Assembly: GCF_007097395.1 (NCBI RefSeq)
Contig: NZ_VKDC01000004.1
Location: 248,001-312,000 of the forward strand
Length of the DNA stretch: 64,000 bases
Direction of reading: 5' to 3'
Source: Fulvivirga sp. M361
GTDB lineage: Bacteria; Bacteroidota; Bacteroidia; Cytophagales; Cyclobacteriaceae
The notes under the pieces were generated by a model, which made no database searches, was not told the origin of the DNA, and saw only the letters and a list, made by a program, of their open reading frames with translations. Of the stretch, positions 10,362 to 11,002 are shown piece after piece. Positions within the stretch are counted from its first letter, which is position 1. Each line of letters opens with the position of its first letter. The position numbers and the translations under genes were made by a program.

Positions 10362-10442
10362 GATCTTGATCTTTTAAGTATGTAGTGTTATGAAATGTTT
10401 GATTGAATTTGACTTGTAGCTATAGCTATGGCATTAAGCATG

Positions 10443-10458
10443 CGGAGGATGCCCTCCG
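10443..10458 (-). promoter_or_regulatory. Hairpin between cysteine leader ORF and metY
   Basis: CGGAGG and CCTCCG form a perfect 6-bp stem with a 4-base loop in the metY leader, about 45 bases after the leader ORF stop and 80 bases before metY. Just upstream, CGCCT and AGGCG (about 10470-10497) can form another stem, which a ribosome stalled on the cysteine codons would partly cover. There is no clear T-tract after the hairpin, so whether control is at termination or translation cannot be decided. Confidence 0.45.
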
Positions 10459-10502
10459 GAAACTTATTACCACGCCTGAATAACTATGATACTAGGCGCT
10501 GA

Positions 10503-10610
10503 CTAACAGCAACAACAACAATGAATAATACCGGGAGACCCGATAGGATCAAATACTGTTTTTAAGAAAGTGGCTAATAAACCTGTTTGGTGCTGGATCG
10601 CTCTTTTCAT
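10503..10610 (-). CDS. Polycysteine leader peptide of the metY operon
   Basis: A 35-codon reading frame lies in the metY leader, between the SAM riboswitch and metY. It starts with ATG at 10610 (MKRAIQHQTG) and ends GSPGIIHCCCCC followed directly by TAG. Five cysteine codons in a row (four TGT, one TGC) at the very end of a short ORF ahead of a sulfur-assimilation operon is the classic design of an attenuation leader: ribosomes slow at Cys codons when charged tRNA-Cys is scarce and change folding of the RNA downstream. Polycysteine leader ORFs act this way in mycobacteria. The mechanism here is inference; it could alternatively be a small metal- or thiol-binding peptide. The sequence upstream of the Cys run also looks protein-like rather than random. 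Confidence 0.7.
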   Translation of the reverse strand: MKRAIQHQTGLLATFLKTVFDPIGSPGIIHCCCCC

Positions 10611-10654
10611 TACTATCAATTTATATTTTCCCGGTTCACCACTGTGGTAAACCT

Positions 10655-10742
10655 TCAAGGGATCAGGAATTAGCACCTTTCCATATTTATTAACTTTGGA
10701 CGGTTGCTAGCGCTTCAACGAGCCTGTCTCTTCACGCTTCTG
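10655..10742 (-). promoter_or_regulatory. SAM-I (S-box) riboswitch
   Basis: On the minus strand the leader of metY contains the S-box core: GAAGAGACAGGCTCGTTGAA, then GCTAGCAACC, a short variable loop, and AAAGGTGCTAATTCCTG. The GGTGCTAATTCC segment and the AGCAACC segment are the most conserved parts of SAM-I riboswitches, and the order and spacing fit. Immediately downstream GGTTTACCAC and GTGGTGAACC form a hairpin that may be the expression platform. The gene controlled makes the methionine precursor homocysteine, which matches the known targets of this riboswitch class. Exact P1 boundaries are not resolved by eye. Confidence 0.88.
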
Positions 10743-11002
10743 TATAAATCGATTATCCAAACAGGATGATCGAATTGATTCAGCAAACGTAGCTACGCTA
10801 ACGAATGTTTCCAAATTATTTCAAAAAATTTTATTCCGTTATTCTGTGGGCCTTCGAAATATTGTGAAGGTATAACGGCATACTATCATCAGGATCCATT
10901 CCGCCTAAAGACACTTCGCCCCGATTGTATAGTTTCATGGTAAATCAAAACCAGTATCGTTTAACTTTATTTGTTATCGTTAAAAATCAGAACCTATCAC
11001 AT

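Follow-up and report, generated by a model that had tools for sequence, protein, structure and literature searches.

A SAM-I riboswitch and a leader ORF with a cysteine tail precede metY in Fulvivirga sp. M361 and in related Bacteroidota

The metY leader and its surroundings

The window, a 64,000-nucleotide stretch of the Fulvivirga sp. M361 genome (contig NZ_VKDC01000004.1), carries on its minus strand three genes for the formation of homocysteine, metY, metX, and hom, which follow one another in this order with overlapping ends. The first gene (9030 to 10361) encodes a member of the O-acetylhomoserine sulfhydrylase family (TIGR01326, 648.2 bits; cut-off, 495.1), and the third (6799 to 8025) encodes a homoserine dehydrogenase (NF004976, 325.5 bits; cut-off, 205). 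The best matches of the second gene (8018 to 9073) are to MetX models, all of them under their cut-offs (TIGR01392, 339.5 bits against 500; NF001209, 309.4 bits against 331), and its product is designated homoserine O-acetyltransferase-like.

Upstream of metY, on the same strand, lies a full-length SAM-I riboswitch aptamer (10618 to 10750) that scores 66.4 bits against the Rfam covariance model RF00162 (gathering score, 44.4; model positions 1 to 108) and 86.7 bits against model R1. It is the sole Rfam match at the gathering threshold in the window, and its membership in RF00162 predicts that it binds SAM. A putative promoter of the Bacteroidota −33/−7 type (TTTG-N20-TACGTTTG; 10784 to 10815, minus strand) was located by pattern match, and transcription probably starts about 25 to 30 nt upstream of the aptamer. 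The 120 nt preceding the aptamer contain the pattern TTG-N18..24-TAnnTTTG in 59 of the 122 leaders with distinct peptides described below, compared to 1.6 in shuffles; the TAnnTTTG consensus for Bacteroidota promoters is given also in PMC9723704.

The 3′ strand of the aptamer helix P1 (UAUAAAUUGAU; 10615 to 10625, minus strand), which ends at 10618 in the covariance model and is extended to 10615 in the fold, is followed by a leader ORF of 35 codons (MKRAIQHQTGLLATFLKTVFDPIGSPGIIHCCCCC-stop; 10503 to 10610, minus strand). The ATG of this ORF, at 10610, is 7 nt past the aptamer end, and its TAG, which ends at 10503, is preceded by five Cys codons (TGT TGT TGT TGC TGT; 10506 to 10520). The encoded peptide matches no NCBIfam family. 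The start of metY is 141 nt beyond the end of the ORF, and the RNA between them folds into three stems (10499 to 10472, 10471 to 10430, and 10428 to 10417, minus strand; −32.5 kcal/mol, z = −3.98 against 200 shuffles) with no T-run after them. An earlier note on this DNA had listed the SAM-I aptamer, the 35-codon ORF with its five Cys codons and TAG, the stems, and metY-metX-hom, and we recovered each of these, with metX at the strength given above. The label "tandem" that it attached to the leader is a misnomer, because there is one aptamer only in the window; a T-box was not found anywhere in the genome.

The genome (8.13 Mb, 148 contigs) contains three SAM-I aptamers. It also contains three sites with four TGY codons followed by TRR, two of which are true Cys runs with a stop, and both of these sit behind a SAM-I aptamer (101 and 120 nt downstream). 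At the second copy of the device (L003; contig C56, aptamer at 1501 to 1621, minus strand), a Cys-tail ORF (MNHFTNISKQHFKHHSLYRLKNNNISTYCPSALVCCCCCCC) follows the aptamer. The first gene downstream of it is ferredoxin-like (several 4Fe-4S Pfam models, each just under its cut-off), and the next is a PLP gene of Cys/Met metabolism that is nearest to O-succinylhomoserine sulfhydrylase (incomplete, and under the NCBIfam cut-off). The same gene order, as judged by a long gap and the PLP gene, recurs at L099, L164, L185, and L196. The third SAM-I aptamer of the genome lies before a metH gene segment, where, by eye, a Cys-tail ORF is lacking and a GC-rich hairpin with a T-run is present.

Conservation of the aptamer, the leader ORF, and the cysteine tail

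Leaders were collected in two samples. In the family sample, SAM-I aptamers were detected in 96 of 98 genomes of the same family; 147 rows were taken from the matches listed, with two contig-edge rows of one genome (G092) and the Fulvivirga genome's own metH row left out, and the first 120 were fetched. The genes behind the 120 fetched aptamers, classified by BLAST to the window genes and L001 (with one metH member and L001 confirmed), are 61 of the metY/metZ type, 46 metH, 3 metX, 3 hom, 5 others, and 2 unassigned. The named sample consists of 80 loci picked by MetY similarity, 77 of which have a SAM-I aptamer upstream. With the window, L003, and L224 added, the two samples provide 141 leaders of metY-type genes. 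A leader ORF was defined as 8 to 70 codons with an ATG 0 to 15 nt past P1, and a Cys tail as at least three Cys within the last 12 residues. Removal of identical peptides reduced the 127 ORFs found to 122, and the named and family sets may share genomes.

The helices of the aptamer are maintained by compensating changes. In 38 leaders of relatives (window excluded), 96.1% of the cells in the helices of the RNAalifold structure are paired, compared to 29 to 44% in slid controls, and compensation in the form of changes on both sides was found in 16 of the 28 pairs (4 of 8 in P1).

A leader ORF is present in 127 of the 141 SAM-I leaders ahead of metY-type genes, and 91 of these 127 have a Cys tail (54 of 77 in the named sample, 34 of 61 in the family sample, and 3 of 3 in the genus itself). 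Among distinct peptides, the tail is found in 89 of 122 (73%), compared to 66 of 5,916 shuffles of the same regions (1.1%). The absence of the Cys run from related leaders had been proposed by the earlier note as a refutation of its own idea, and the run turned out to be conserved. Cys accounts for 47.1% of the last eight residues of the 122 distinct peptides and for 3.0% of the residues elsewhere, and Met is second by amount (9.4% versus 2.2%). Over the last 12 codons, Cys reaches 34.6% in the ORF frame versus 8.9% and 1.7% in the other two frames, and its codons are mixed (TGT:TGC, 358:209). The tails are mixtures (for example, CCCCC, CICMCCCC, and MCMCCCMCN), with Arg, Tyr, and Ser also found among the Cys. 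Leaders of metH genes have an ORF in 4 of 46 cases and a Cys tail in none of the 46.

The remaining 33 of the 122 distinct peptides are tail-less, and 22 of them stay so when Met is counted. Many come from Algoriphagus- and Cyclobacterium-like leaders, and there are a few in which the gene is overlapped by the ORF. In a number of Algoriphagus, Cyclobacterium, and Echinicola leaders (L022, L030, L031, L034, L035, L037, L038, L039, L041, and L044), the tail is mostly weak, Met-rich, or absent, while the aptamer and the ATG after P1 are kept; this branch possibly represents a loss of the cysteine input.

Alignment of five leaders (the window, L224, and L007 to L009) over the region that begins with the Cys run and extends to metY shows that bases 1 and 2 of the Cys codons are invariant and the third is T or C; the metY start is kept, and the stretch between the Cys run and metY is poorly conserved. 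Because the first two bases are fixed and the third varies, we conclude that selection in these five leaders acts on the amino acid and not on an RNA helix. A pairwise codon test of 28 pairs, many of them poorly aligned, gave 59 same, 38 synonymous, and 55 changed Cys columns, and 239 same, 156 synonymous, and 272 changed columns elsewhere, with no clear excess at Cys; since this test produced no clear difference, we rely on the five-leader alignment. As judged from these comparisons, the small peptides appear to have retained their Cys/Met tails while the rest of the ORF drifted. The ORF bodies of the 122 leaders have G-initial codons at a frequency of 14.7% (of 3,508), compared to 27.4% of 910 early metY codons, for which access by Rho, low structure, or composition may be the reason.

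A scan of the 98 genomes for four Cys codons followed by a stop yielded 55 sites among the matches listed, nearly all with TAA or TAG (most TGA and all TGG sites were omitted). Seven of the 55 are behind a listed SAM-I aptamer. Twenty regions were fetched from the other 48: L224 is a SAM-I leader, L215 is the leader of a cysE-like gene, and the rest have no clear leader, which indicates that the bare pattern is not diagnostic.

A survey of the class found a SAM-I match in 83 of 119 genomes, and 69 of the leaders, from 29 new loci and 40 regions, were examined, taken roughly by rank, with same-family rows, one G176 row, and weaker rows left out. Nine leaders belong to metY genes at least 72% identical to that of the window, and eight of them have the ORF and six the tail. 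The ORF is present in two of the eight leaders of distant metY genes (33 to 36% identity) and in three of the 40 metH leaders, and the tail in none of either group. An ORF with a Cys tail was encountered in only four families of this survey (the family of Fulvivirga, f2, f41, and f42). These counts suggest that the device accompanies one metY type in a subset of families and that many other families lack it. Tail carriers include Chryseolinea serpens, Mucilaginibacter lappiensis, M. oryzae, M. gossypii, Pontibacter aquaedesilientis, Cesiribacter andamanensis, and an uncultured Lewinella, and we take the carriers of the named set to fall in more than one order of Bacteroidota.

P1, the leader start codon, and the stretch ahead of metY

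The P1 3′ strand (UAUAAAUU) lies 6 to 10 nt before the leader AUG in 104 of the 122 leaders, and in the window it ends 4 to 7 nt ahead of the ATG, depending on whether the fold or the covariance-model end is used. In the window and in these 104 leaders, an aptamer helix reaches into the uORF start region, an arrangement that characterizes riboswitch-controlled uORFs. Occurrence of the ORF also follows the type of the P1 3′ strand: among 263 distinct leaders, an ORF is present in 116 of 121 with the UAURAA type, in 10 of 109 with the GAURAG type, and in 20 of 33 with other strands.

In the 109 leaders with a spacing of 5 to 11 nt, P1 supplies A at positions −12, −13, and −14 relative to the leader start (frequencies of 0.83, 0.80, and 0.72) and T at −15 (0.59), and the starts of metY itself are similar (n = 25; A, 0.64, 0.76, and 0.68; T, 0.68). 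Ribosome profiling of Flavobacterium johnsoniae identified adenines at −3 and −6 as positive determinants of initiation and linked low structure from −20 to +20 to it, and the discussion of that paper also names −12 and −13 (PMC6847099). A P1 closed by SAM would thus hide the cues of the ribosome in these Shine-Dalgarno-less bacteria. Because P1 falls within the sequence at which ribosomes would initiate on the leader ORF, the two sensors would be nested and not side by side, and we suggest from this geometry that SAM may control leader translation via P1. SAM-I riboswitches respond to bound SAM by shutting genes off; provided that P1 blocks translation of the leader, this translation would favor metY.

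The stems of the window are not conserved in relatives. Across 75 leaders, the segment from the stop to the gene is somewhat better folded than its shuffles (mean z = −0.85), and no hairpin after the ORF is shared in the aligned groups (consensus energies of −0.5, −4.0, −27.6, and −7.0, of which −27.6 comes from two near-identical sequences and −7.0 from an alignment that included L014 with a wrongly chosen ORF). No intrinsic terminator was found between the window ORF and metY, and a classical terminator/antiterminator arrangement in this leader is not supported. Intrinsic terminators were counted in 10 of the 122 ORF leaders (3.3 in shuffles), in 7 of 14 metY-type leaders and 4 of 6 other leaders without an ORF, and in 1 of 46 metH leaders; these counts replace a scan that was confounded by the Cys run (TTGTTGTT) and by short regions. 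Leaders of metH genes are equally poor in terminators, so ORF leaders are not set apart by this scarcity. Given the rarity of intrinsic terminators, an output through Rho or through translation fits best, in which a ribosome at the Cys tail would shield the next stretch. A Rho gene is present in the genome.

Two other candidate features of this stretch were rejected. Base pairing between the Cys run and the RNA downstream of it does not hold generally, being weak overall (75 leaders; mean z = −0.24), and a rut-like excess of C over G after the stop occurs in 51 of 71 leaders, compared to 46 of 71, 58 of 71, and 31 of 46 in controls. On visual inspection, some groups do show such pairing, as with GCAACAC in Chryseolinea-like leaders.

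A possible two-input leader and its alternatives

The elements of the device are present and conserved, with selection at the amino acid level in near relatives, a P1/ATG geometry, and a tie to the leader type, and their best explanation is probably a nested two-input leader. When SAM is bound, P1 would be closed, and ribosomes would be barred from the start of the leader ORF. When SAM is low, the leader would be translated, and ribosomes short of charged Cys-tRNA (or Met-tRNA) would stall at the tail. A ribosome held at the leader end would shield the downstream RNA from Rho or from folding, and metY-metX-hom would be on. If SAM is high and the leader is not translated, or if Cys is ample and its translation ends quickly, termination or failed initiation would occur before metY. 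The logic of such a leader would be NOT SAM AND NOT charged Cys-tRNA; the gating by SAM, the sensing of tRNA, the output step, and the sign are what we infer from the arrangement of the parts. With slightly less assurance, we lean toward regarding the device as a riboswitch expression platform of a new kind, which responds to NOT SAM AND low charged Cys- or Met-tRNA and in which the P1 strand also serves to start a sensor peptide without a Shine-Dalgarno sequence. In several Bacteroidota orders, metY operons of this type would usually be under its control. The idea of two inputs in one leader, already put forward in the earlier note, gains support from these data; the position of P1 in the ORF start region, the Met enrichment, the second copy in the genome, and the recurrence in other families had been missed.

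Relatives provide hints about the sign of the cysteine response. The device precedes a PAPS/APS reductase gene at L199; at L178, the gene behind it belongs to the nitrite/sulfite reductase family. Both placements fit sulfur assimilation. At L178 (minus strand, aptamer and about 400 nt downstream), the SAM-I aptamer and Cys-tail uORF are followed by a second, very Cys-rich uORF (MPFKFNCNPLFFLMSCCCCACVCCICCICT) and then by an intrinsic terminator, and the sequence TCCCGGG behind the stop of the second uORF could base-pair with the terminator's 5′ arm. The antiterminator and terminator folds of this leader have energies of −14.1 and −14.3 kcal/mol, and it is readable as a classical attenuator. 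At L215 (about 1000 to 1080, reverse strand), a Cys7 leader peptide (MNIKNNIAKLNTASFVAGACCCCCCC) lies 63 nt before the cysE-like gene (162 bits, under the cut-off of 211); no SAM-I aptamer was seen at this locus, making it a cysteine-only leader in the same bacterial family. Its Cys run has a possible pairing partner in CAACAG, directly ahead of a T-run, and the helix disappears when the Cys run is masked. Each being a single case, L178 and L215 would fit a rule by which the genes are on when Cys is short, and such a sensing of cysteine, with this sign, may apply to the metY leaders as well.

The opposite sign, by which a stall at the Cys codons lowers metY expression, with cysteine given priority for scarce sulfide, seems unlikely. 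Sulfide is, as generally known, used by both MetY and cysteine synthase, but the device stands before sulfur assimilation genes at L199 and L178, and at L178 and L215 the leaders can be read as linking a stall to expression. Less likely still, leader translation could matter only as a whole, through polarity or coupling, with the tail working not by way of tRNA charging but by sensing thiols, metals, or the redox state or by signaling nascent-chain arrest. Metal binding is possible for Cys-rich peptides in general, and the tail is C-terminal; its loose make-up, with Met, Arg, Tyr, and Ser among the Cys, is nevertheless unlike a fixed arrest motif, and Met as the second enriched residue fits a role for the codons of sulfur amino acids. 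It is more doubtful again that the two sensors are independent, with SAM-I acting elsewhere than on leader translation and the leader attenuating alone. A few leaders do have an ORF further from P1 or none (for example, L052, with a later-starting Cys-tail ORF), but the 6- to 10-nt spacing, the tie of the P1 type to the ORF, and the few terminators available to a separate SAM platform argue for nesting.

Two further readings concern the sequence itself. According to the earlier note, TTACCAC in the hairpin next to the riboswitch (10650 to 10644) could pair with GTGGTAA after the ORF (10473 to 10467) in an alternative structure. The 7-nt match exists, but about 10% of shuffles equal or exceed it and it is absent from L224, L007, L008, and L009, which places the alternative pairing at chance level and makes it very improbable. 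Finally, TGTTGTTGT is repetitive, and a TTG/TGY simple repeat might have been read as an ORF by chance; we give this no credence, given the tail frequency of 73% versus 1.1% in shuffles, the frame specificity of Cys, the mixture of TGT and TGC, and the fixed spacing of the start.

Each half of the nested two-input leader is known already, as SAM-I riboswitches before met genes and as polycysteine leaders; what is new here is the position of the P1 3′ strand ahead of the leader AUG. Mycobacterial polycysteine ORFs, on which Canestrari et al. wrote in 2020, are reportedly leaderless; by contrast, about 165 nt of the predicted transcript, including the aptamer, precede the window ORF. Actinobacterial leaders described in 2005 share with ours a short ORF, a Cys run before the stop, sulfur genes, and the lack of conserved terminator hairpins, and Rho-dependent termination was suggested for them by analogy with tna; they belong to a different phylum and to different genes, and the account of these leaders mentions no riboswitch (PMC1262725). 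In Mycobacterium tuberculosis, the aptamers of Mbox/rv1805A (PMC12810186) and B12/ppe2 (PMC11260477) likewise control the translation of a short uORF, and Rho-dependent termination was proposed for the former (PMC12810186), whereas the ligands are other ones, the Shine-Dalgarno sequence is sequestered, and the passages on these uORFs describe no regulatory codon run. Tandems of SAM-I and a Met T-box before metX and metY (nine examples; PMC9481103) follow the same logic of NOT SAM AND amino acid starvation, but in them the T-box RNA reads the tRNA and the platforms are two separate ones, whereas here a translated peptide would do so within a nested device. The tandem Cys codons of uORFC-8-2, upstream of cysS in Rhodobacterales, also cue the charging of Cys-tRNA; that leader differs in having an intrinsic terminator with a U-run, in its gene, and in its phylum, and its description mentions no riboswitch (PMC8632094). 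Two transcriptome papers on Bacteroidota deal with leader peptides in general, and their sections on the subject contain no SAM-I or cysteine run (PMC7366714 and PMC9723704). In the open full-text literature, with subscription papers mostly outside it, we found no description of a nested SAM-I and Cys leader in Bacteroidota.

If the proposed mechanism is true, a riboswitch would decide whether a second, translation-based sensor gets used at all, and end-product sensing would be joined with the sensing of sulfur amino acids in one RNA. SAM-I would then act on translation without a Shine-Dalgarno sequence, by P1 hiding the adenines at −12 to −14. Because the device recurs in named species such as Mucilaginibacter lappiensis and Chryseolinea serpens, these proposals are directly testable.

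Two further loci are of note. At L018, two SAM-I aptamers (4040 to 4151 and 5592 to 5708) are found in one 13-kb locus. At L206, a SAM-I aptamer and a Cys-tail leader (MKKSPSSSLKFQHSYSPKSSLQWVTSGCCCCCCN) precede a gene of a Na+/H+ antiporter family (PF03553), and methionine transporters of this antiporter type exist.
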